Notes: generated by a model from the sequence alone, not told the origin. Shown: positions 280 to 14,193, counted from the first letter of the stretch. The stretch: 64,000 bases of DNA from Halosegnis rubeus (GCF_009184545.1 NZ_QJOW01000001.1:310001-374000); one strand, 5' to 3'. A program made the numbers and translations.

Positions 280-1182
280 ATGACCGAGCAACACTCTCGA
301 CTACAGGTGTTCACGAGTAACTGGCAGGCAGCGGCACTGCTACTGCCCACCCTCGCGCTCATCGCCGTCTTCCTCTATTATCCGTTTCTCGAAACGGTGC
401 AACTGAGCTTCTATCAGCTGCGAGTGCTCGGTAGTGGTGAGTGGGTCGGGCTACAAAACTACGTACAGTTGTTCGAGTCCGGAGCGTACCGAAACAGCTT
501 GGTCGTCACCGTACTGTTCACTGCAGCCACGGTAACTGCCTCGCTGTTTCTCTCTCTCATCATCTCGTTTCTCATCCACGAGGCCAACCGGTTCACTAAT
601 CTCTACTTAGTGGCCGCAATCTGGCCATATGCGATGCCAATCGCTGTCGCCGGCATCGTGCTTGATTTTCTTATCAATCCTCGTATTGGGGTCGTCACGT
701 GGGCGATTGAAGTGCTGACCGGCTTCCAATTTGCGTGGCAAACAAACGGGGCCCTCGCCCTAGTGGCTGTCATTATTGCTGCCGTCTGGCAGGGGTTGGG
801 CTACAGTATCATCTTCATGACAGCCGCATTCAACCAAGTCCCCGACTCAATTACGGATGCAGCCAAGCTAGATGGGATTGGACGGTTCCAGCGGCTGTTT
901 CGCATCTACGTCCCCCTCATTTCGCCTGTGCTCGTGTTTCTGATCGTTATCCAGACGATTGGAGCGTTCTTCGGTGGCTTTGCCCTTATCGACCTGATGA
1001 CAAGCGGTGGTCCGAGCAATGCCACAAACGTGTTGATGTTCAATCTGTACCAGGACGCCTTCCTGAACCAGCGATTCGGCTACGCCTCCGCACAGTCTAT
1101 CGTCCTGTTTGGATTCGTTGCCGTGTTGATGTACGTTCAGTTACGTGTCACTGACCGCTACGCGTACTACGGGGGTGCCTGA
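280..1182 (+). CDS. ABC transporter permease, UgpA/MalF type
   Basis: A 300-residue inner-membrane permease with six predicted membrane helices, the first around residues 18-38 (LLLPTLALIAVFLYYPF). The EAA loop that docks the ATPase is visible near residue 195 as DAAKLDGIGRFQRLFRIYVP, with the conserved G and the following P. Such proteins form half of the translocation channel for sugars, glycerol-3-phosphate or polyols. The ATG directly abuts the stop of the binding-protein gene and the end overlaps or abuts the next permease, so the three are one operon. The base composition is clearly less GC-rich than the genes after 3 kb. The substrate is unknown. Confidence 0.88.
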   Translation: MTEQHSRLQVFTSNWQAAALLLPTLALIAVFLYYPFLETVQLSFYQLRVLGSGEWVGLQNYVQLFESGAYRNSLVVTVLFTAATVTASLFLSLIISFLIHEANRFTNLYLVAAIWPYAMPIAVAGIVLDFLINPRIGVVTWAIEVLTGFQFAWQTNGALALVAVIIAAVWQGLGYSIIFMTAAFNQVPDSITDAAKLDGIGRFQRLFRIYVPLISPVLVFLIVIQTIGAFFGGFALIDLMTSGGPSNATNVLMFNLYQDAFLNQRFGYASAQSIVLFGFVAVLMYVQLRVTDRYAYYGGA

Positions 1183-1183
1183 C

Positions 1184-2041
1184 GTGTCGATCGTCCCAGA
1201 CACCGTCAACGAGCGGCTGTTGACGACGACCGGTGACAGCCAACTGGCGACTCACGCAGCACTCTGGCTCATCATCTCGGTACTGATTTTGCCAATTGCA
1301 CTGGCTGCAGTGTACAGTACACAAACAACGAACGCTGTGTACCAAATCACGAACGTCTTCCCGGGGTCTGCACTCGTCGAGAACTACACCACGGTACTGT
1401 TTGAGTACAACTTCGGACAGTATATGTGGAACTCGTTTGTGATGGCGACCGTCGTTATCGTCGGGAAACTTGTTTTTTCGCTGCTCGCTGCGACAGCACT
1501 GGTGTACTACGACTTCCGGTTTCAGTCGCTCATCTTCTATGCAATTCTGTTTACGCTCCTGATGCCGCTCCCCGTCCGAATTGTCCCGCTGTATCAACTA
1601 ATGGCCGATATCGGCTGGCTCAATTCCTTTGCGGGACTTACCTCGCCGTTCATCGCCAGTGCGACAGCCGTCTTCTTATTCCGACAGCAGTTCCGCTCAA
1701 TCCCTGCATCGGTCGTTGAGACAGCCAAGCTGGACGGAATCGGTCCGATCCAATTCTTGATAAACGTCCTCATCCCGATGTCGAAGGGGATGATTGCTGG
1801 CGTCACGGCAATCATGTTCATCTCGACGTGGAACGCGTATCTGTGGCCGCTTGTCGCGATTATTGACCGCACGAACCAGGTCGCTCAGGTCGGCCTGCGG
1901 TACATCCAGGGGACCGGTGCAGAGGGCTTCGTCCAGTGGAACCTCGTCATGGCTGCCGGCATTCTCGTGTTGATTCCGCCCCTCATCGTGTTACTCGTCG
2001 CCCGCCGATATCTCCTCTCGACGCTGGGTGGTGGCGAGTAA
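1184..2041 (+). CDS. ABC transporter permease, UgpE/MalG type
   Basis: A 285-residue permease, the partner of the preceding gene. Six membrane helices are apparent, and the EAA loop reads ETAKLDGIGPIQFLINVLIP around residues 177-196, the MalG/UgpE signature. Start choice: GTG 1184 sits one base after the upstream stop; a GTG at 1145 in the same frame would add 13 residues and overlap the upstream gene by 38 bases, so 1184 is preferred but not proven. The operon would normally continue with an ATPase gene (UgpC/MsmK type), but none follows: after the TAA comes an element scar. The ATPase must be upstream of the window, elsewhere, or lost. Confidence 0.87.
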   Translation: MSIVPDTVNERLLTTTGDSQLATHAALWLIISVLILPIALAAVYSTQTTNAVYQITNVFPGSALVENYTTVLFEYNFGQYMWNSFVMATVVIVGKLVFSLLAATALVYYDFRFQSLIFYAILFTLLMPLPVRIVPLYQLMADIGWLNSFAGLTSPFIASATAVFLFRQQFRSIPASVVETAKLDGIGPIQFLINVLIPMSKGMIAGVTAIMFISTWNAYLWPLVAIIDRTNQVAQVGLRYIQGTGAEGFVQWNLVMAAGILVLIPPLIVLLVARRYLLSTLGGGE

Positions 2042-2830: not shown

Positions 2831-2945
2831 TTCGCCTTCGTTCTCGCTCCTCGCCGGAAGAACGCGGCCAATCGTGTGACCGTCCGTCCGGACGGAACGC
2901 TTCGTCTGCTCAAGATTCAAATACCAGCGCGCGACCACCGACGGC

Positions 2946-3299
2946 GTGACCACCGACATGCTCTCTGACCGACTCGCCGCCGTTGAACGCACGCTCACCG
3001 ACTCCGAGACTGCTCCCGGCGCACTCGCCGAGGAAGCTGACATCCAGCAGCGACTCACCATCGTCGAGTCCCGACTCGACGCGCTCGAAACGCGACTTGC
3101 CGACACCGAAGGCGAAGTGACAGCCGTCCGGGCACACGTCGACGACGCCCAGCGTGTGGGCCGAGAGACCGAACGCGTGGCCGAACGCGCGCTTGCGCTT
3201 GCTCGCGAACAGACCCGCGAGCCTGCGTCATCGACGCCGACCCGAACTACGTCCGCAGTGTCGCGGCTGTTCGCTCGGCTTCGGGCGCTCACTCCGTGA
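2946..3299 (+). CDS. Coiled-coil protein of the Tad-like locus (DUF7310-like)
   Basis: A 117-residue, soluble, highly charged protein. Residues 5-90 form heptad-like helices (LSDRLAAVERTLTD, QQRLTIVESRLDALETRL, then VRAHVDDAQRVGRETERVAE), so a coiled coil is likely; the tail has basic residues and a LFARLRAL helix. Start is GTG 2946 or ATG 2958. The 3' end overlaps the next gene by four bases (GTGA), the first of a long run of overlapping genes that includes a secretion ATPase and a TadC-like membrane protein. It could be a cytoplasmic scaffold or regulator of that machine; this is inferred from position only. Confidence 0.75.
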   Translation: MTTDMLSDRLAAVERTLTDSETAPGALAEEADIQQRLTIVESRLDALETRLADTEGEVTAVRAHVDDAQRVGRETERVAERALALAREQTREPASSTPTRTTSAVSRLFARLRALTP

Positions 3300-3730
3300 T
3301 TGTTCGACTCGTCGTGGCTGTCCTGCTCACCGCTGCGCTCCTTGGTGTCGGGCTGCCGGCCGCCGAGACCGCGCGCTCCGAGCGAGCAGCCACGCTCGCA
3401 CAGGACGAACTCACCGACTTTCGAGACGCCACGGGCCGATTCCGGAGGCACAACGACGCCACCCGACCCGGGCAACCGGGTGCGGTGCGACTCCACACGT
3501 TCCGGGTGCCGGCGGGGACTACTATCCGGCTCGGGGTCGGCCCGAGAAACGAGTCGCTCCGGTGGAAACACGGGACCGGCGCGGGCCGCGTCGAGACCGA
3601 CCTCTCCTTCGACGGCTCGCTCCGACTCACCGAAGGACGCCACTGCGTCCGACTGCGACTCGTTCGCGCCGACAGTGCGGTCAGGATTCGGCTCCGGAGA
3701 TTCAAGTCGGATGCCGGGGCCACCGGCTGA
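3296..3730 (+). CDS. Membrane-anchored protein of the Tad-like locus (DUF7311-like)
   Basis: A 144-residue protein starting at a GTG that overlaps the upstream stop. Residues 2-22 (VRLVVAVLLTAALLGVGLPA) are one hydrophobic segment followed by AETARSERAATLAQDELTDF, an arrangement typical of pilin-like or minor-pilin-like haloarchaeal proteins: one N-terminal helix, then an extracytoplasmic beta-rich region with TFRVPAGTTIRLG. No lipobox and no clear prepilin GQ motif is seen. It is placed just before the secretion ATPase gene and probably co-translated. A role as envelope component of the machine is inferred from context; function is unknown. Confidence 0.72.
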   Translation: MIVRLVVAVLLTAALLGVGLPAAETARSERAATLAQDELTDFRDATGRFRRHNDATRPGQPGAVRLHTFRVPAGTTIRLGVGPRNESLRWKHGTGAGRVETDLSFDGSLRLTEGRHCVRLRLVRADSAVRIRLRRFKSDAGATG

Positions 3731-5492
3731 TATGCTCGACTTCGGCGACGACGAGGACGGCTGTGGCTGCGTGTGCCGGTTCGTGGACGACACGCTCCGA
3801 CTCGACGCGAGTGACTGTCCCGGCGACGGCGAACTGGCTACCGAATCCGACTGTCGGGCCACTGCCGTCGGCGCGCTCCGTGACCGCGACGCCGACCTCG
3901 TGGTCGTCCGTACGGCCGGGCTCGAACGCCGGTACGAGACGGCGATGCCGCTGCTCGTCGCTGCCGGGCGGTTCGTCGCCCGCGCCGGGTTTCACGACGA
4001 GGCGCTCGCGGACCGTGCGCTCGTGGACCCACTCGACGCCGCGCGCCTCGCCGCCGGCCGCGCCGGTCCCGTCGCCACCATCGCCGCCGAGACCGGCTTC
4101 ACCGAGTGTGCGAGCGCCGCCGAGGGGTACGAGACGCTGTTCCGACCACAGGTCGCACCGGCAATCGCGACCGAGCGAGTCGTCGCGCGTCCGCCGCCCG
4201 ACGCACGACTCCGCGAGCGATACGAACTCGACACCGGGGCGACCGTCCGACTGTACGACGCCCCGGACGCGGACCTGCTGACGTATCATCTCACGCCGGT
4301 CGAACTCACGCTCGAGGAGGCCGCCACGACGGCCCTCGACGCGGCCGCCGAACGACTCGTGAGCGATGCGCTCGCCGGCCAGCGGGCCGCCGGCCGCGCC
4401 GTCAGGGCCGTGGCGAGCGAAGATCAGCCGGTCGAGACGCTCACCGGCGTCTTGGACAAACACACTCGAGGGCTGGGCGTCCTTTCGGACATCTTTGCCG
4501 ACGCCGCGGTCTCCGACGTGTTCGCCTCCGCGCCGGTGGAAAAATCGCCCGTGAGACTCGAACGCGACGGACGGACCGTCCGGTCGAACGTCGTGCTCAC
4601 GCCACAGACCGCCGACGCGCTCGCCTCGCAGTTCCGTCGCGAGAGCGGGCGGGCGTTCTCTCGCGCGAGTCCGACGCTCGATGCCTCCGTCACCGTCGCC
4701 GGTCGTTCCGTCCGGGTGGCGGGCGTCACCGACCCCGTGAGCGACGGGACGGGTTTTACCTTCCGCGCCGACAGCTGCGACCGATTTCGGCTCGCCGACC
4801 TCGTCGCGAACGACACCCTCACGCCGTCGGTCGCCGGCCTGCTCTCCGTCGCCGTCGAACGAAGTGCGTCCATCCTCGTCGCCGGCGGGCGCGGTGTCGG
4901 GAAGACGACCCTGCTCGGCGCGCTCCTCGGTGAACTCGCCCCCGGCACCCGGACCGTCGTCGTCGAGGATACCCCCGAGCTCCCGGTCGGGTCGCTGCGC
5001 GCGTCCGGGCGTGACTGTCAGCGTCTCCACGTCGAGCGCGACGGTACGGGAGTGGGACCGACGGAGGCACTCCGAACCGCGCTCCGACTCGGCGAGGGCG
5101 CAATCGCCGTCGGTGAGGTGCGCGGCGAAGAGGCGGTCGCGCTCTATGAGGCGATGCGTGTCGGCGCGGACGGGACGACCCTCGGAACGATTCACGGGGA
5201 GAGTCCGGAGACGGTGCGCGAGCGCGTCACCACTGACCTCGGCGTCGCGCCGACCGCCTTCGCGGACACCGACCTCGTGGTGACACTCGACCGGAGCGAC
5301 GGGCGACGCGTCGCGGACGTGTCCGAGGTGGTGGGTCGTGATTCGCCCGCCTTCGCCCGGCTGTTCGACCCGACGAAAACGGGGCGTGTCGACCGCGGAA
5401 ACAGCGCCGTCGTCGCGTCCCTCGCCCGTCCGGGCGAGACCTACGGCGATGTGCGCGAGGCGGTCGACACCCGCGCGGCGGCGTTTCGATGA
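3711..5492 (+). CDS. Type II/IV secretion ATPase (TadA/PilB/GspE family)
   Basis: A 593-residue cytoplasmic motor ATPase. The Walker A box GGRGVGKTT is near residue 395, an Asp box with EDTPELP follows, the Walker B region reads GEVRGEE near 470, and the His box GTTLGTIHGES near 490, all as in TadA/GspE proteins that power archaeal and bacterial type IV filament systems. The N-terminus is rich in cysteine (CGCVC within the first 20 residues, two more by residue 50), a feature of haloarchaeal PilB-type ATPases that may bind metal. Start is ATG 3711 (overlapping the previous gene by 20 bases) or ATG 3732 (one base after its stop). The stop overlaps the TadC-like gene by ATGA. Confidence 0.9.
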   Translation: MPGPPADMLDFGDDEDGCGCVCRFVDDTLRLDASDCPGDGELATESDCRATAVGALRDRDADLVVVRTAGLERRYETAMPLLVAAGRFVARAGFHDEALADRALVDPLDAARLAAGRAGPVATIAAETGFTECASAAEGYETLFRPQVAPAIATERVVARPPPDARLRERYELDTGATVRLYDAPDADLLTYHLTPVELTLEEAATTALDAAAERLVSDALAGQRAAGRAVRAVASEDQPVETLTGVLDKHTRGLGVLSDIFADAAVSDVFASAPVEKSPVRLERDGRTVRSNVVLTPQTADALASQFRRESGRAFSRASPTLDASVTVAGRSVRVAGVTDPVSDGTGFTFRADSCDRFRLADLVANDTLTPSVAGLLSVAVERSASILVAGGRGVGKTTLLGALLGELAPGTRTVVVEDTPELPVGSLRASGRDCQRLHVERDGTGVGPTEALRTALRLGEGAIAVGEVRGEEAVALYEAMRVGADGTTLGTIHGESPETVRERVTTDLGVAPTAFADTDLVVTLDRSDGRRVADVSEVVGRDSPAFARLFDPTKTGRVDRGNSAVVASLARPGETYGDVREAVDTRAAAFR

Positions 5493-7186
5493 CTCTTTCC
5501 GTGCTCCCGCAGTTGGCGAGGCTCTCACCCCGAACGTTCACTCCGGATTCGGACTCCGACCTGTCGGTCGCGCTCGACCTGCTCGCCATCGATTCTGACG
5601 CGGAGATGTGGCGTCGAGCCGGCGACGGTGCGGCGCTCGTTCTGCTCGCCGCCGGTCTCGCCGCGACGCTGCTCGTGCCGTCGCGAATGCGCCCGCCCGC
5701 GTTGGTCGTGACTCTCGCGCTCGCCACAACCGTCATCGTGGCGGCCACTCGGCTCCCACCCGTCGTTGCGACCGTGGTCAGGCGGCGAGCCTTCGGCGGT
5801 GCGCCGTGGCTGGTGTGTCGTGCCGCGATGCGGCTTCGCGTGGAGCCGACGCTGGAGGCAGCTACTGCGGTCGCCGCTGCGAATCCGGCGACGACCCTCG
5901 ACCGGGCGCTCGCGGCCTCAGTCCGGCGCGGCCGCGCGACCGGTACCGCCGGCGTCGACGACTTTCTCGAACGATGGGGGTCATTTCTGCCACTCCAGCG
6001 CGGGATTCGCCTGCTCGCCGACGCGAGCCGAACGAGCGCCGCCGACCGACCACAGGCAATCGAGCGGGCGCTCGATGCCGTCCTCGATGGGGTGCGCGAA
6101 CAGGCTGCCGAGGACGCTGCCGGTCTCCGCGGGCCGGTCACTGCCGTCTACGCCTTCGGCGTTCTCCTCCCGTTGGCGTTCGTTGCCGCCCTTCCGGCCG
6201 CCAGCGTCGCCGGTCTCCCCATCTCGCTTCCCGCCGTGGTAGTCGTCTACGACCTCGTGCTCCCAGTCGGACTGCTCGCTGCCGGAATGTGGCTCACGAC
6301 GAAGCGGCCGGTCACCTTCCCGCCGACGCGGATACCGGCCACCCATCCTGCTGTCCCCGGTGGGCCGTGGTGCGCACTCGCGACCGGGGCCGCTGTCGCT
6401 GGTACCGCTGCTGTCGTCGCCCCGCTTCTGCTTCCGGCGTGGGCACCGCCACTGGCAGCCGTCGGCTTCGGTCTCGGGACGGGACTCATCGTCCACTATC
6501 GGCCCTACCGGCAGCTTCGAGCCGAGACTGCCGCTGTCGACGCCGGACTTGCGGACGTGCTCTACGGCGTCGGTCGCCGGGTGCGGGACGGCGACCCAGT
6601 CGAGCGGGCTATCGACGCGACCCACGAGACGCTCGACTCGCCGGCGAGTGCGACCTTCGCGCGGGCGAACCGACAGGGGGCAACCCTCGGTGTCGGCATC
6701 GAGACGGCGCTGTGTGGCGAGCGAACGCCCCTCGCGACGGTACCGAGTCGGCGCGTCACGGATGTCGCTCGGCTGTTCGTCGCCGCGGCTCGTGCCGGCC
6801 AGCCGGCCGGTCCGTCGCTCGCCGCGGCCGGTGAGCACCTCGCCACGCTCGCCCGCGTCGAAGAAGAGACCCGACAGTCGATTCGCCACGCCACGGGAAC
6901 GATGGGCAACACGGCGGCGCTGTTCGGTCCCCTCGTCGGCGGCGTGACGGTCGCGCTCGCCGGCCGCGTCAGCGGCTCACAGCTCGGCGAGGCGATTCCT
7001 CAAGCCGGTCTCGCACTCGCCGTCGGCGTCTACGTCCTCCTGCTCGCGGTCGTCTTGACCGCCCTCGCGACCGGACTGGAGCGCGGCTTCGACCGCTCCG
7101 TCGTCGGCTACCGCGTCGGTCTCGCCCTCGTGGCCGCGACGACGACGTATCTCGTTTCGGCCGTCGCCGGCGGACTCCTCGTCTGA
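5489..7186 (+). CDS. TadC/FlaJ-like membrane platform protein (type II secretion F family)
   Basis: A 565-residue polytopic membrane protein starting within the stop of the ATPase gene. Several hydrophobic segments are grouped in two halves (around residues 48-88, 210-265, 290-330 and 480-565), and each half has a cytoplasmic T2SSF-like domain; LADASRTSAADRPQAIERAL in the first and VGIETALCGERTPLATVP in the second are the amphipathic helical parts. In this family the protein anchors the ATPase and moves pilin subunits. Duplicated T2SSF domains are usual for archaeal FlaJ/TadC-like proteins. With the ATPase it forms the conserved core of the machine. Confidence 0.85.
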   Translation: MTLSVLPQLARLSPRTFTPDSDSDLSVALDLLAIDSDAEMWRRAGDGAALVLLAAGLAATLLVPSRMRPPALVVTLALATTVIVAATRLPPVVATVVRRRAFGGAPWLVCRAAMRLRVEPTLEAATAVAAANPATTLDRALAASVRRGRATGTAGVDDFLERWGSFLPLQRGIRLLADASRTSAADRPQAIERALDAVLDGVREQAAEDAAGLRGPVTAVYAFGVLLPLAFVAALPAASVAGLPISLPAVVVVYDLVLPVGLLAAGMWLTTKRPVTFPPTRIPATHPAVPGGPWCALATGAAVAGTAAVVAPLLLPAWAPPLAAVGFGLGTGLIVHYRPYRQLRAETAAVDAGLADVLYGVGRRVRDGDPVERAIDATHETLDSPASATFARANRQGATLGVGIETALCGERTPLATVPSRRVTDVARLFVAAARAGQPAGPSLAAAGEHLATLARVEEETRQSIRHATGTMGNTAALFGPLVGGVTVALAGRVSGSQLGEAIPQAGLALAVGVYVLLLAVVLTALATGLERGFDRSVVGYRVGLALVAATTTYLVSAVAGGLLV

Positions 7187-7199
7187 TACCGCCACTGAT

Positions 7200-7207
7200 G
7201 TTTATAT
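7200..7207 (+). promoter_or_regulatory. TATA box for a leaderless message starting at 7231
   Basis: GTTTATAT lies in the short gap after the TadC-like gene. Its centre is about 27 bases before the ATG at 7231, the distance expected between an archaeal TATA box and the transcription start, so the message would begin at or next to the start codon. This suggests the second half of the locus has its own promoter, and it supports 7231 over the ATG at 7198, which is upstream of and overlaps the TATA box itself. Confidence 0.5.
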
Positions 7208-7230
7208 CCGAAGCCGGGCCCACCCGGCGC

Positions 7231-7692
7231 ATGTTCGATGCGACGACGGGATGGTACAGTTGGGCCGGCGTCTCCCTCGCTGCGGCGGGACTACTGGCCG
7301 TCACGTTCGGGCTTCCGACCGCGCCGCCACCGGACGTACGGGCTACGGCCACAGCCGTCGACGGCGTCGCTGACAGCGACTACGCCGGCAGGGCGACCAT
7401 CGATATCTACGCGACGCAGTTCCGGCTCACGCCCCTCGGGCTGTCGGTCATCACTGACAACGGACGCGCACACGCGACGTTCGACGCCGGGCCAATCGTT
7501 CCCGTTTCTGACGGGCCGCTGCGGGCTGTCCTCGACGGGGCCGACCCACGGCGCGTGTTCGAGGGTCCCACGAGATTCGCCCTCGCGGTCGAGCAGGCGC
7601 GTTCCCGAACGACGAGATGGCAGCCAGCTCCGGACTCGCTTTCGGCCAGACAGCTAACGTGGGGTGAGACGCGTGTCACGCTCGTCGGATAG
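7231..7692 (+). CDS. Membrane-anchored protein of the Tad-like locus (DUF7283-like)
   Basis: A 153-residue protein: MFDATTGWYSWAGVSL leads into a single hydrophobic helix (AAAGLLAVTFGLP, about residues 14-28), followed by an extracytoplasmic domain with alternating beta-type segments such as IDIYATQFRLTPLG. No catalytic motif is visible. The start at ATG 7231 is chosen because a TATA box sits 27 bases upstream. The 3' end overlaps the next gene by about 20 bases. Conserved position between the TadC-like gene and the other single-helix proteins suggests a structural component or assembly factor of the same machine. DUF number from memory. Confidence 0.75.
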   Translation: MFDATTGWYSWAGVSLAAAGLLAVTFGLPTAPPPDVRATATAVDGVADSDYAGRATIDIYATQFRLTPLGLSVITDNGRAHATFDAGPIVPVSDGPLRAVLDGADPRRVFEGPTRFALAVEQARSRTTRWQPAPDSLSARQLTWGETRVTLVG

Positions 7693-8044
7693 AGGACAGA
7701 CCGACCCGCTTGTCGCACTCGTCGCCGTCGCGGCGGTCGGACTCTCGCTCTCGGCGTACGGCGGGCTGCTCGGCGACGCACTCGCTCCGACGACTCCCTC
7801 GCCTGCGCCGACCCTCGATTCGGTGACGGACGATATCGCTCCAGCCGGTGTCGCCGACCCGGAACACCTCCCCACGCTCTCGGTCGGCGAGGCGACGCAC
7901 GTCTCGCTCGCAGTTCGCGGTCGCTCGTGGAGCGTCGGGCCGACGCCACCGGAGGGCGGGACCCGCCACGCGCGCCAGCGGCTCCCGATTCGGCGGGCGA
8001 ACGGCACCGTCGACGCGGGGCGAATCCGGGTGACGGTCTGGTGA
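7673..8044 (+). CDS. Pilin-like protein with prepilin-type motif (DUF7285-like)
   Basis: A 123-residue protein whose N-terminus reads MSRSSDRGQTDPLVALVAVA and continues as a hydrophobic helix to about residue 32. The RG|QTDPL followed by an uncharged helix resembles an archaeal class III (type IV prepilin) signal, with cleavage expected before Q by a PibD-type peptidase; pilin QxxP-like conservation fits archaeal adhesion pilins. The rest is a short extracytoplasmic domain with VGEATHVSLAVRGRSWSVG. Start is GTG 7673; a GTG at 7664 would add three residues. It overlaps the next gene by GTGA. A minor or major pilin-like role is inferred. Confidence 0.75.
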   Translation: MSRSSDRGQTDPLVALVAVAAVGLSLSAYGGLLGDALAPTTPSPAPTLDSVTDDIAPAGVADPEHLPTLSVGEATHVSLAVRGRSWSVGPTPPEGGTRHARQRLPIRRANGTVDAGRIRVTVW

Positions 8045-8880
8045 GTCGCGGGCTCTCTACGGTTGCCGACGTGCTCGTCTGTCTCGTGCTCGTCTCCGCG
8101 GCCGCGACGACGCTCGCGCTCCCGACTGCCCCGACGCCGTCGCCGGATGCCGACGCCGCTGTGACGGTCGTCGAGCGCACGACGACCGATATCGAGTACC
8201 GCCTCGTCGCTCCCGACGACGAGCACATTCCGGCGTCGATGCTTTGGCGTCGGACGACCGGTCGACTCTCTGAGCTTCTCGCCCGCAGCGCCGTCCGGAA
8301 CGCGACGATCGACGGCAACCAACTGACGCACGCGAGCGACGAGTTCGAGCGCCGGGTCGCCGCGGCAGTCGTGAACGCAACCGGCCCGCAGACACAGGTA
8401 GTGGCCCGCTGGCAGCCGTTTCCCGGCGCAGCTATCGGTGGGACGGCGGTGGCTGGTCCGGCCCCGCCTGCGGACGCGGCCGTCGCAACTCAGACCCGAC
8501 TCGTTACGACAGCCGGTGAGCCGCGACGACAGGCGACTCGCGCGGCCGAGGACTTCGGCTACGCCGGCGTCGCAGCCGTCGCGGCGACACGGACGACAGA
8601 ACGACTGTGGCCTGCCACGGGGATGCGGAACGCGCTCGCGGCCGACTATCCGACCGACCGACTCGCAGTCGCACGGTATGAAGCCGCCGGTCGCCACCTC
8701 GGCGTGTCAGTCGAGGATGCGCTCGCGACGCGGAACGTGACCGGCGTACACAGCCGGCTCCGCGAGACACTGCAACGACGCTACGAGCTGCGGCTCCGCG
8801 AGCGGTTCGACTCTCCCGAGGAGGCAGCGCGGGCGATACAACCCGGAGTGACGGTTGTCGTCCGGCGATGGTCGGCGTGA
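8041..8880 (+). CDS. Membrane-anchored pilin-like protein of the Tad-like locus (DUF7284-like)
   Basis: A 279-residue protein starting at a GTG that overlaps the upstream stop. It opens with MSRGLSTVADVLVCLVLVSA, again a charged tip, RG, and a hydrophobic helix to about residue 28, then a long extracytoplasmic region rich in R, A, T and V with repeated arginine-rich helices (LRETLQRRYELRLRERF near the end). The RG-LSTVADV arrangement is reminiscent of Tad minor pilins (TadE/TadF-like) but the glutamine/glutamate at mature position 5 is not evident. It ends overlapping the 986-residue gene. Structural role inferred from position. Confidence 0.75.
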   Translation: MSRGLSTVADVLVCLVLVSAAATTLALPTAPTPSPDADAAVTVVERTTTDIEYRLVAPDDEHIPASMLWRRTTGRLSELLARSAVRNATIDGNQLTHASDEFERRVAAAVVNATGPQTQVVARWQPFPGAAIGGTAVAGPAPPADAAVATQTRLVTTAGEPRRQATRAAEDFGYAGVAAVAATRTTERLWPATGMRNALAADYPTDRLAVARYEAAGRHLGVSVEDALATRNVTGVHSRLRETLQRRYELRLRERFDSPEEAARAIQPGVTVVVRRWSA

Positions 8881-11828
8881 ACGAGCGCGCCCGCGTGCCG
8901 TTCGCACTGCTCGGAGTGGTGCTTCTCGTCGGGAGCGCGAGTATCGCCGCCGGACTCGGTGGGACCTCTCCCACGCGCGAGCCGGCGACCGAGGCGGCTA
9001 TCGAGCAGGGGCGCACATCGCTCGGCGGGACCGTTCACGATGCGACCCGGACGGCGGCGAGGAATGTGGCAGCATCCCCGGTCGTCGCACCGGCGAACAC
9101 GACGCTCGGACGAGTGCTCGCGGCGACCGGCGACCCGTTCCGAGCCGCGCTCGAGCTTCGGACGTATCTCGCGGTTCGCGACCGGCTCTCGGCGACGACC
9201 GAACGCGGCGTCACCGTCGACCCGTCACTGCCGGCGCTGCGAGACTCGGCGGATATCGACGCCGCGCTCTCACGGACGACAGTCGAACCGGTCGGGGCGA
9301 ACGCGACGGCCGTCAGAACCACCGTCGCGAACGTCACGCTCACGGCGATGCGCGACGGGCGCGTCATCGACAGGTACGCGGTTTCGCCGACGATGACCGT
9401 CCAGACACCGGTGTTTGCGCTCCACGAACGAACGAGGACCTACCAGCAGCGACTCGACAGCGGCGCGACCGAGCCGGGACTGGCGCGCCGGGCGACCGCA
9501 CGCCTGTACGGGGTGGCGTGGGCACGGGGACTCACCCAGTACGGCGGCGGCCCGATCGCCAACGTCGTCTCGAACCAACACGTCGCCGTGGCGACGAACC
9601 ACGCGCTCCTCGCTCAACAGCGGGCGACGTTCGGCGCGACAGACGACACGGGTCGCCGCGCGGTCCGGGTCGCCGCCGCCCGCGCCGCGGGAACTGACCT
9701 GTTGGCCGCGACCGGGCAATCTGGTAAGCAGATTCAAGAACTTCTCGCCGGTGTCGACGCCGCGACACCGGGGTCGACCCTCGACCCGGTAGCGGCGGCA
9801 AATCCACCGATAACGCCGGAATCAGCGCTGAACGTCTCCGTCGGCGAGCAGGCGACGACGGCGTTCGACCGGTTCGTCACGACCGACCTCGACGCCGTGC
9901 TCGCTGCGCCGTACCGCGTGACGGTCGAACGCCGACGTGCCGTCACCGACAGCGCGACGACGACCGCCGGACGCGAACGGCCTACCGGGGACAACTGGAC
10001 GCTCGTCGGGACCGAACAGACCGACGAGACGACCGTGACAGACGGAGACGCGACAGTCGGCTCTCCCGTGAATCCGTGGCACACGCTCGCTACGACCGGC
10101 CGTCGGGTCGCCGAGACGACCCGGACGGAGCGCCGGTGGCGACGTAATCACACGACGCACACGACGGTCGAGACGACTACCCAGACGCGGCGCGTCTCGA
10201 TACGACTCGTCGGCCGCCACGACGGTGGAGCCGCACCGCCGGTCGGGACATCGCCCATCCACGAGCGCGGTGGCGCGATCGACGGCCCGAACCTCGCGGC
10301 CGTCGAGCGTCGAGCGAAGACACGGCTCCTCGGCGACGAGCAGGACCTCGACGCGCTGGCGGCTCGCACGACGAGCGACGGAACCACCCAGACGACGATT
10401 CGCGGCGAGCAGCCGCTCGAGCTACGAGACTGGGTGTACCGCGACCTTGTCCGACTGCGTGAACGAGTGGCGAACGTCTCGGTGGCGGTCGAACGGGGCG
10501 CAGTCGGCACGTACCAGGTGAATCCGAGCGACGAACTCGCAGGGGCCCTCCGAGCGCGACGCGCACGACTCGTCGACCGTCCCGACGAGTACGACGGCGT
10601 CGCGGACCGGGCACGGGTCGCTGCACGCGGTGCGTATCTCGATGCGGTTATCACGGAACTAGAACGCCGAGCCGACGACCGCGACGGCGTGAAAGAGCGG
10701 CTTGCCGGCCTGCTCGCAGCGCGCGGGCTGAGTCTCGGCCGCCTGCGCTCGATTATGGCCGCACGCTCGCAGGTCACGACGCCGACGAGCCATTCGATTT
10801 CGGGCGTCGGTGGCTCCTACTCGCTCGACGTAGAGGGAGTCCCGGCGTATCTCACGCTCGCGTCGGTGAATCGGACGCAGACCGACTCGCTGCGCGAGGG
10901 AAGCGTCCGTCCGCTCGCCGCACGCAACACGAACATATTCACCGTGCCGTACGGCGACGCTGCCGACGGAATCGTCGGAAAACTGTTCGGCGGCGACCGA
11001 GTCAGGCTTCGGTCTGCGGCGCGCGCGCTCGCGGCCGGTGAGGAACTCGCGACCCACGAAACGCTCGAAGCCGATGTCGAGACCGCTGTGAGCAGACGCC
11101 GGCGCGGGATGCGTCGCGTCCTCCGGCGGGCCGGCGTGGGTGACTCCCGCAGCGACCGTCGCCGAATCGTCGCGGCCGGGCTCGGGGCGTGGGAGACGGT
11201 CGCCGAGCGTGCCATCGCTGTCACCGAGAATCGTGGACCCGACGCCGTCGCCGCCGTGGCGCTCCGACGCTCGCCCGGTTCGTTCGACGGGCCGGCCGAC
11301 CGCGACGACCTCCGACGGTCGCTCCGTGCTGTGGCGACCGATGGGCGCGGCGTGCCCGAGTCATCCGTGACGCCACACGTCGAACGCGCACGCCAGATGG
11401 TCGGGAAACTGGTGAAACAGAGCGTCGGTCGTGCGGCCAACCAGACGACGACCGCTGTCCGTGAGCGACTCGAGTCGAAAACGGGTAAGCTGGCCGCTGT
11501 TCCGAGCGGAATCCCCGTTACTCCAGTTCCGTCACAGTGGTACGCAACGGCCAATATCTGGGATATCGAGGCGCGCGGTGGTTACGATCGCTTCGCCGTC
11601 AGCGTCCGTAACGGCGGGCCGGGACGGCGACTTACCTACGTCAGGGACGGTAGCACCGTCGTCATCGACTGGAACGGCGACGGTGAGCTAGAACGCGCGG
11701 GGACCGCGACCGCAGTCACGTTCGCATACCGAACGGCCGTCGTGGTCGTCGTTCCGCCCGGTGGACAGGGCGTCGGGGACGTAGACGGTAACGCCGACGA
11801 ACGCTCTGCGGGGTGGGGGGAGCGATAG
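8868..11828 (+). CDS. Very large membrane-anchored extracellular protein of the Tad-like locus (DUF7286-like)
   Basis: A 986-residue protein, by far the largest of the cluster. It has one N-terminal hydrophobic segment (FALLGVVLLVGSASIAAGLG, residues about 12-31), then an enormous outward-facing region built from alternating helical and beta segments with many R, T and A residues, few cysteines and many NxT/S sites (for example NTT, NVT, NAT) that could be N-glycosylated in haloarchaea. The last 50 residues are hydrophobic/acidic (TAVVVVVPPGGQGVGDVDG). Start is ATG 8868 or GTG 8877; the latter makes a GTGA overlap. No enzymatic motif was found. It might be a filament-tip, adhesin or scaffold protein; function is unknown. 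Confidence 0.78.
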   Translation: MVGVNERARVPFALLGVVLLVGSASIAAGLGGTSPTREPATEAAIEQGRTSLGGTVHDATRTAARNVAASPVVAPANTTLGRVLAATGDPFRAALELRTYLAVRDRLSATTERGVTVDPSLPALRDSADIDAALSRTTVEPVGANATAVRTTVANVTLTAMRDGRVIDRYAVSPTMTVQTPVFALHERTRTYQQRLDSGATEPGLARRATARLYGVAWARGLTQYGGGPIANVVSNQHVAVATNHALLAQQRATFGATDDTGRRAVRVAAARAAGTDLLAATGQSGKQIQELLAGVDAATPGSTLDPVAAANPPITPESALNVSVGEQATTAFDRFVTTDLDAVLAAPYRVTVERRRAVTDSATTTAGRERPTGDNWTLVGTEQTDETTVTDGDATVGSPVNPWHTLATTGRRVAETTRTERRWRRNHTTHTTVETTTQTRRVSIRLVGRHDGGAAPPVGTSPIHERGGAIDGPNLAAVERRAKTRLLGDEQDLDALAARTTSDGTTQTTIRGEQPLELRDWVYRDLVRLRERVANVSVAVERGAVGTYQVNPSDELAGALRARRARLVDRPDEYDGVADRARVAARGAYLDAVITELERRADDRDGVKERLAGLLAARGLSLGRLRSIMAARSQVTTPTSHSISGVGGSYSLDVEGVPAYLTLASVNRTQTDSLREGSVRPLAARNTNIFTVPYGDAADGIVGKLFGGDRVRLRSAARALAAGEELATHETLEADVETAVSRRRRGMRRVLRRAGVGDSRSDRRRIVAAGLGAWETVAERAIAVTENRGPDAVAAVALRRSPGSFDGPADRDDLRRSLRAVATDGRGVPESSVTPHVERARQMVGKLVKQSVGRAANQTTTAVRERLESKTGKLAAVPSGIPVTPVPSQWYATANIWDIEARGGYDRFAVSVRNGGPGRRLTYVRDGSTVVIDWNGDGELERAGTATAVTFAYRTAVVVVVPPGGQGVGDVDGNADERSAGWGER

Positions 11829-11858
11829 CGTCAAATCCGTCGGCTGGCTAGTCGGCGT

Positions 11859-12062
11859 GTGCTCGACGAGACTGCCGATTGGTATCTACTCGCCGGCGTG
11901 GTGTGTGCGCTGCTTTCGCTGCTGCTCATCCCAATCGCCGGACTGGGAGCCGTCTACTGTGGTTATCGGATTCACGGCGACCGCCACCCGGTGTACAGCT
12001 ACGCGCTCGCCGGCGTCGGCGCGTTCTCGCTCGCCGGCTGGGCCGCGTACCTGCTGTCGTGA
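11859..12062 (+). CDS. Small two-helix membrane protein ending the Tad-like locus
   Basis: A 67-residue protein with two hydrophobic segments (LLAGVVCALLSLLLIPIAGLGAV and YALAGVGAFSLAGWAAYLLS) separated by a short charged loop, YRIHGDRHPV. Start is GTG 11859, about 30 bases after the preceding stop. It is the last gene on the strand before a gap with its own promoter-like sequence for the next gene, so it may belong to the secretion operon, though membership is inferred only from spacing. No known catalytic motif. Confidence 0.65.
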   Translation: MLDETADWYLLAGVVCALLSLLLIPIAGLGAVYCGYRIHGDRHPVYSYALAGVGAFSLAGWAAYLLS

Positions 12063-12104: not shown

Positions 12105-12530
12105 ATGCTTCACGACCTCGTCGCCAACCCGGGCGACCACTCCGGACCGGAACTGTACGACGCGATGGTAGCCGAACTCGCTGCCGGCGTCGAATCGGTC
12201 GGCGTCGACGCCATCGCCGCTGAGACCGACGTGCCGGAAGCTACGCTCCGTGACCTCGTTGCTGGCGACCAACCCGAACTCACCGTCGAGGAAGCGGCAG
12301 CTATCCTTGCCGTCGTCGAGGACGACCACGCCGGCGACATCGTCGCGCTCTCGCGGGACGCCATCATGATGGGGATGTCACAGGCCGTCCTCGACGTGGA
12401 GGCGCTGGCGGCCAACGCCGGCGGCGAACTCGAACCGCGCGAGGTGCAGTCGAAAATCGAGGGTCGGTTCCCGATGACTCTCCGGGAGTTCGCACTGCTA
12501 CACGCGACAATTCAGGCCCAGACGGTCTGA
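12105..12530 (+). CDS. DUF5791-like helical protein
   Basis: A 141-residue soluble protein, all helical in appearance. Residues 1-60 include GVDAIAAETDVPEATLRDLV, which reads like a small helix-turn-helix (XRE-like) segment, then ELTVEEAAAILAVVEDDHAG. The C-terminal half holds RDAIMMGMSQAVLDVEALA and ends in FPMTLREFALLHATIQAQTV. It is a haloarchaea-specific family of unknown function (DUF5791 by recollection). The gene stands alone, with about 40 bases upstream containing GGCATTTAG, a weak TATA-like box. DNA binding is possible but unproven. Confidence 0.75.
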   Translation: MLHDLVANPGDHSGPELYDAMVAELAAGVESVGVDAIAAETDVPEATLRDLVAGDQPELTVEEAAAILAVVEDDHAGDIVALSRDAIMMGMSQAVLDVEALAANAGGELEPREVQSKIEGRFPMTLREFALLHATIQAQTV

Positions 12531-13839: not shown

Positions 13840-14001
13840 GCTTCAATCCCACAAGGGTTCGTCTGTACCCGCCCCTTCGCCGTCGTCGATCGGCGCGCCT
13901 TCGAGGCTTCAATCCCACAAGGGTTCGTCTGTACCCCGTCAGAAAGTCAGCGCCATAGTCACTCATGTTAGCTTCAATCCCACAAGGGTTCGTCTGTACC
14001 C
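13840..14001 (+). CRISPR. Three-repeat CRISPR array without cas genes
   Basis: Three identical 30-base repeats start at 13840, 13906 and 13971 (first bases GCTTCAATCCCACAAGGGTT, last bases CGTCTGTACC), each followed by C. Spacers are 36 bases (13870-13905) and 35 bases (13936-13970) and are unlike each other. On the opposite strand the repeat begins GGTACAGACGAACCC and ends GGGATTGAAGC, the haloarchaeal type I-B class of repeat (canonical forms begin GTTACAGACG or GTTTCAGACG). The array is probably read on the minus strand, in the repeat orientation ending in GAAGC. No cas gene is in the window. The 190 bases after it up to the next gene show nothing else clear. Confidence 0.88.
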
Positions 14002-14193
14002 GTGCCCAATTCGTGGCACTCACGCCGCTGTACTGGTGTTCGGGACTTAGTGTTTCCGTCGACCCTCAATACCCCCAGAATCCCCGATGTCGATGAAATC
14101 TGCCGTCGACCGACCATCGAACGAGCCTCAGTTCGAACGGCCGAACGGTTGCGAGAGCGGAACCGTTAGCCTCCGTCGTCTCGAACGCGGGGT

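Follow-up and report, generated by a model that had tools for sequence, protein, structure and literature searches.

A haloarchaeal locus of the pilB2/C2 type: co-inheritance of a putative pilus motor with a set of single-helix surface proteins

Which machine is encoded by a nine-kilobase gene run in the genome of Halosegnis rubeus, and what does it build at the cell surface? An earlier note on the window (the whole stretch of 64,000 nucleotides analysed here) had described a Tad/type-IV-pilus-like locus with one giant surface protein, and had taken it for a poorly described system; the description is borne out by Pfam matches and by the conserved gene order, whereas the novelty was overstated, since the locus matches both subclade 4F of archaeal type IV pili (PMC4858521) and the pilB2/C2 regulon (PMC9856176). 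Indeed, all features point to the known, uncharacterised haloarchaeal pilB2/C2 regulon, that is, "subclade 4F"; what is added here is the co-inheritance of its parts, a hint of two transcripts, an enrichment in sequons, structural models of DUF7286 and DUF7284, and block deletions, the kind of pilus being already known.

Eight conserved proteins are encoded on one strand between positions 2946 and 11828 of the window, in the order DUF7310, DUF7311, ATPase, TadC-like platform, DUF7283, DUF7285, DUF7284 and DUF7286 (Table 1), and the run reaches 12062 with a last ORF; it is not a product of chance, since nearly all relatives with enough flanking sequence have the same order. The count of nine genes on one strand given earlier holds for these eight; the ninth, of 67 aa, is probably not part of the system, since neither the 80 relative loci nor L180, a locus from the same genus, contain a homologue. 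Similarly, 4-base overlaps, said to be present at most junctions, are found at four (DUF7310/DUF7311, ATPase/TadC, DUF7285/DUF7284 and, if DUF7286 starts at GTG 8877, DUF7284/DUF7286), while DUF7311/ATPase and DUF7283/DUF7285 overlap by about 20 bases and a 44-base gap, holding a TATA-like site, separates TadC from DUF7283. For DUF7286 the start at 8877 (983 aa), backed by relatives, is more likely than the one at 8868 (986 aa).

Table 1: Features of the locus and its immediate surroundings (positions in the window).
Feature	Position	Strand	Remarks
TATA-like site TTCAAATAC	2916..2924	+	first base 30 bases 5' of GTG 2946; probable first transcript start
DUF7310, cytoplasmic coiled-coil protein, 117 aa	2946..3299	+	Pfam PF23991, 69.5 bits; without hydrophobic segment
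DUF7311, one N-terminal hydrophobic segment, 144 aa	3296..3730	+	Pfam PF23993, 94.6 bits
TadA/VirB11-family secretion ATPase, N-terminal CxC..C..C domain	3711..5492	+	T2SSE, 64.5 bits, 9e-18
TadC/PilC-like membrane platform, 565 aa	5489..7186	+	T2SSF in family members; several membrane segments
TATA-like site TTTATAT	7201..7207	+	first base 30 bases 5' of ATG 7231; probable second transcript start
DUF7283, single-helix surface protein	7231..7692	+	Pfam PF23954, 148 bits
DUF7285, pilin-like, class III-type signal (RG|QTDPL...)	7664..8044	+	Pfam PF23956, 85 bits
DUF7284, pilin-like, class III-type signal (RG|LSTVAD...), 250-residue ectodomain	8041..8880	+	Pfam PF23955, 236 bits
DUF7286, giant single-helix surface protein, 986 aa	8868..11828	+	Pfam PF23957, 1012 bits, whole length
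67-aa ORF (counted as ninth gene)	11859..12062	+	not conserved
DUF5791 neighbour, HTH-like, not a pilus part	12105..12530	+	Pfam PF19104

In the classification of Makarova (2016; PMC4858521), the ATPase of subclade 4F has a Cys-rich N-terminus, variable and prominent in methanomicrobia, and is accompanied by an intracellular coiled-coil protein, frequently by an S-layer-like surface protein, and by an FtsZ-like neighbour; in a 2023 survey of CetZ proteins (PMC9856176), the pilB2/C2 regulon adjoins cetZ2, together with a predicted transcription factor and an epimerase. As in subclade 4F, the gene of the TadC-like platform here comes directly after that of a VirB11-family ATPase; we infer that DUF7310 is arCOG07564, as we do for arCOG–DUF equations generally, and DUF7286, large and sequon-enriched, may be the S-layer-like gene of that classification. 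A cetZ gene lies in the flank of 51 of the 80 relative loci, its best match being always the same cetZ paralog, and in this genome it is found about 6.4 kb upstream of the locus (C6:306028-306525). DUF5791, which adjoins DUF7286 in most loci, probably corresponds to the transcription factor predicted near cetZ2; an epimerase is also encoded downstream in this genome.

The flanks of the locus hold some further elements. In this genome cetZ is separated from the operon by ABC transporter genes (two permeases, an ATPase and a binding protein) as well as by a phosphodiesterase-like gene (window 280-2041, C6:306684-312038), while cetZ and DUF7310 are immediate neighbours in most relatives. An ORF on the minus strand at 2280-2807, just upstream of the operon promoter, gave no Pfam match; we take it to resemble the N-terminal part of an IS1341-type TnpB, and it may be a remnant. 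Just downstream of the pilus locus, a 30-32-nt repeat (GCTTCAATCCCACAAGGGTTCGTCTGTACCC) occurs three times at 13840-14002, with a spacing of 65-66 bases, as a small CRISPR-like array.

As for the motor, the ATPase with a Cys-rich N-terminus was rightly recognised by the earlier note: it matches T2SSE, and its four N-terminal Cys are invariant in 24 haloarchaeal relatives; in the methanogen orthologs the N-terminus is longer and more Cys-rich, with several Cys pairs in most of them. The best curated match, the TadA family TIGR03819, and the presence of CpaF among the nearest solved structures might suggest a bacterial-type Tad pilus gained by transfer; the match, however, scores 128.1 bits, below the cut-off of 373.15, 2oap is closer to it than CpaF among solved structures, the operon proteins gave no match to the families of Flp pilin, TadV, TadZ, a separate TadB or secretin, and the methanogen orthologs point to an ancestry within this archaeal phylum, so that such an origin is very improbable. 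Searched with the profile of the locus, the two other ATPases of the same genome score about 128 bits versus 861 for the locus ATPase, and in a small tree the haloarchaeal and methanogen orthologs are split from these two paralogs with 100/100 support, on long branches. The TadC-like protein matches T2SSF with E = 0.32 only, over one stretch (residues 367-469); through the 16 of 22 members of its family that match T2SSF (best 3.3e-5), it can be read as a probable, very divergent T2SSF. The duplication proposed earlier for this platform is plausible from length and helix pattern, although only one copy is matched by the profile; hhalign detected no relation to a PilC of the same genome. The platform adjoins the ATPase in nearly all haloarchaeal loci and in eight of the nine methanogen loci examined, and the coiled-coil DUF7310 was found in 71 of 81 loci.

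The conservation of the whole set was analysed in 80 named haloarchaeal loci, collected with a DUF7286 profile. The block DUF7283-7285-7284-7286 occurs in the same order in 81/81 loci, including those in which the ATPase does not adjoin it, and DUF7310-7311-ATPase-TadC lies upstream in nearly all loci with enough flank. In the Halorussus-type loci L085, L089, L090 and L093 the ATPase/TadC pair is not upstream of DUF7283-7286; in L089 and L093 it lies several kb downstream.

A census of 194 Halobacteria genomes (at least 90% complete; ATPase orthologs called at E <= 1e-120) detected DUF7286 in 151, DUF7284 in 146 and the ATPase in 144. The co-occurrence of accessory genes and ATPase anticipated by the earlier note is largely confirmed: 144 genomes contain both ATPase and DUF7286, 43 neither, none the ATPase without DUF7286, and seven DUF7286 without the ATPase. 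Of these seven, two carry only a C-terminal fragment (G012, G067), one is fragmented (G121) and two give weak matches (G125, G056), leaving G045 and G174 with fuller DUF7286/DUF7284 blocks and no ATPase. The Fisher value for the association (4e-36) is inflated by relatedness, but the losses are scattered over several families. A stronger, independent test of co-inheritance is provided by 55 genomes of the phylum outside Halobacteria, where the DUF7284-containing block and the ATPase-TadC pair lie at separate places: the ATPase ortholog is present in 29/29 genomes with DUF7284 and in 0/26 without (scores of 354-426 bits, the next best match reaching 143). Since the modules are unlinked there, linkage is not the cause of the association; the 26 genomes without DUF7284 are the next ones in the same phylum sample and belong mostly to other families, and shared ancestry still contributes. 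Motor and surface parts, so consistently found together, methanogens included, almost certainly belong to one machine.

Two genomes of one genus, G012 and G067, document how the system may disappear. Between cetZ and DUF5791, both retain DUF7310 followed only by the C-terminal end of DUF7286, with the scars at L183 10380-11318 and L184 9076-10427; in G012 the 5' part of DUF7310 is fused in frame to the DUF7286 C-terminus, while in G067 DUF7310 is intact. As read from the sequence, two deletions with different end points took motor and surface genes together and left cetZ and DUF5791 in place; since cetZ2 survives the loss of the system, it is not dependent on it. A recent, mobile-element-like acquisition of the regulon has been proposed (PMC9856176); the scars, together with the methanogen orthologs, favour instead an ancient origin followed by losses, at least for the scarred genus.

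The arrangement of promoter-like motifs suggests a division of the operon into two parts. A TATA-like motif is found at -34 to -24 before DUF7283 in 52/80 relatives and, with similar spacing and a strict pattern, before DUF7310 in 18/51; it precedes the ATPase in 3/30, and none was found in 326 upstream regions of DUF7311, TadC, DUF7285, DUF7284 and DUF7286 (0/65, 0/46, 0/64, 0/80 and 0/71, respectively). Promoter calls being based on motif and spacing, this suggests two leaderless transcripts, one for a motor unit and one for a surface module; the same split is found where the modules are unlinked, in some Halorussus loci and in methanogens.

The five proteins DUF7311, DUF7283, DUF7285, DUF7284 and DUF7286 each have a single N-terminal hydrophobic segment, and in their families N-x-S/T sequons exceed the shuffled expectation by 2.2, 2.0, 2.7, 2.8 and 3.0 times, respectively, compared with 0.8 in both coiled coil and platform and 1.5 in the ATPase; the enrichment fits an exposure of these five to the haloarchaeal N-glycosylation pathway. 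A class III-type signal, searched as [KRHDE][GA] followed by a hydrophobic N-terminus, is present in 69/81 DUF7285 and 54/81 DUF7284 relatives, while DUF7283 lacks the canonical motif and DUF7286 follows the strict pattern in 3/81 relatives and fails it in 78; in 80/81 of the latter a G or A precedes R[VI]PF, and it is the R at +1, counted from the presumed cleavage site, that breaks the pattern. These two exceptions, the separability of the DUF7283-7286 block from the motor and the adjacency of cetZ2 would suit a static, membrane-anchored and S-layer-associated complex, which ATPase and TadC would only insert or position, perhaps with CetZ2 as a scaffold; the strict co-inheritance with a filament motor, the class III-type signals of DUF7285 and DUF7284, and the retention of cetZ2 after loss of the system make this arrangement decidedly unlikely.

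Structure prediction, which had been expected to reveal pilin-like or adhesin-like folds in the giant protein, gave a confident model of DUF7286 (mean pLDDT 85.5) and an even more confident one of DUF7284 (92.0), both with one N-terminal helix and an alpha/beta ectodomain; that part of the expectation which concerned the fold found no significant counterpart. Foldseek gave no match to the PDB at E <= 0.001 for either model, and the best VIA-align Z scores (for DUF7286, 5.9 with SecDF and 5.0-5.6 with SecB; for DUF7284, 5.0 with a ribosomal protein) are at background level. Neither model thus matches significantly a solved pilin, adhesin, PilY1 or S-layer fold, although the fold may still be one of these, and the absence of a PDB match would be no proof of a new fold. 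No sequence relation among DUF7283, DUF7284, DUF7285 and DUF7286 was detected by hhalign in the pairs tried, and a literature search for the name "DUF7286" found no paper. A DxDxDG loop occurs near the C-terminus of haloarchaeal DUF7286; as a calcium-binding feature of the family in general it was rejected, being absent from the inspected methanogen C-termini.

The locus contains neither a prepilin peptidase nor a major pilin, as had been noted before; this is no peculiarity, since genes of both kinds are found elsewhere in the genome, namely a prepilin peptidase (C6:11703) and five Pilin_N genes. The major pilins of Archaea are mostly encoded in trans, and that dedicated to subclade 4F is arCOG02981 (PMC4858521), to which none of the five was assigned. 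One DUF7287 gene is also encoded outside the operon (C7:297185). In a methanogen relative of family f18, a second pilin-like cluster, DUF7287/DUF7288-like by eye, stands beside the DUF7311-7286-like block (L123 1-6249); it is a possible source of shaft pilins. The lack of a major pilin in the locus, the small number of pilin-like proteins, mostly single-copy, and an ectodomain large enough to serve as piston head or base would suit a pseudopilus like that of type II secretion, in which the motor would stroke a short rod of DUF7285/7284/7286 and so push out, or bring into position, some other protein, surface-bound or secreted, with no long pilus. Against this, the operon lacks a conserved gene for a dedicated cargo, the genome provides Pilin_N genes and a prepilin peptidase elsewhere, and related archaeal systems with such a motor make adhesive filaments (PMC4292770, PMC6491452); a pseudopilus is therefore unlikely.

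The best explanation, to which we assign a probability of roughly 0.6, is that of a pilB2/C2 pilus motor with a DUF7285/7284/7286 tip complex; it builds on the observed gene content, conservation, co-inheritance, single N-terminal helices and sequon enrichment, and would add to them filament assembly, a tip location, adhesion and the two transcripts. The ATPase (PilB2, presumably a hexamer) would use ATP to drive, with the TadC-like platform (PilC2), the assembly of a surface pilus, DUF7310 would regulate or dock the motor, and the shaft would consist of pilins processed by the prepilin peptidase, the gene of which lies elsewhere in the genome. DUF7283, DUF7285, DUF7284 and DUF7286, expressed from their own transcript, would assemble in fixed stoichiometry at the surface, where the last three would insert their N-terminal helices into the filament as minor pilins do. 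The DUF7286 ectodomain (about 950 residues), too big to be repeated along a shaft, would be placed at the tip, serving there both as initiator and as the head for binding; tip role and function are proposed by analogy with the TadE/F/G and Kil tips of bacterial Tad pili (PMC12075869). The filament is preferred because of the class III-type signals of DUF7285 and DUF7284 and of the peptidase and Pilin_N genes in trans; against it stand the R at +1 in DUF7286, the lack of significant similarity of either model to solved pilins, adhesins or PilY1, the negative hhalign result for the DUF7283-7286 pairs tried, and the few genomes with DUF7286 or DUF7284 and no ATPase. A tentative extension, with the odds against it, is that the tip complex has a new fold and evolved independently of bacterial TadE/F/G, the pilus itself dating back to the common ancestor of Halobacteria and methanogens and having been retained by most haloarchaea for a contact function such as adhesion, cell-cell recognition, mating or antagonism.

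About three quarters of the sampled haloarchaeal genomes carry this machine, the biological role of which is listed as unknown (PMC9856176). Its near-perfect motor/surface co-inheritance in two archaeal groups, even where the genes are unlinked, defines a parts list and makes the function testable; the deletion scars speak for loss, in one genus at least, as the cause of its uneven distribution, and against the recent acquisition proposed in that survey.

Among known systems, a tip adhesin of the PilY1 type is likewise a large extracellular protein encoded with minor pilins, and the DxDxDG loop of haloarchaeal DUF7286 recalls it; there was, however, no structural match reported by the searches, the loop is missing from the methanogen C-termini inspected, and DUF7286 has an N-terminal helix of its own. 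Bacterial Tad systems with TadE/F/G or Kil tips (PMC12075869) follow a comparable logic, with small pilin-like proteins, one very large one, and N-terminal helices for the filament end, whereas family scans found no homology to their tip proteins and the locus lacks secretin, Flp pilin and separate TadB. The PilB3-C3 and PilB1-C1 adhesion pili of H. volcanii are alike in ATPase and platform, in pilins encoded in trans and in a shared prepilin peptidase, but their ATPases belong to other clades and no DUF7283-7286 set has been described with them. With subclade 4F/pilB2-C2, finally, the locus has in common the Cys-rich ATPase, the TadC protein, the coiled coil, the pilin-like proteins, probably the one surface protein, the cetZ2 neighbour and the presence in methanogens; it differs in the ABC transporter cluster and the transposase-like fragment found between cetZ and the operon, the operon itself being the same.
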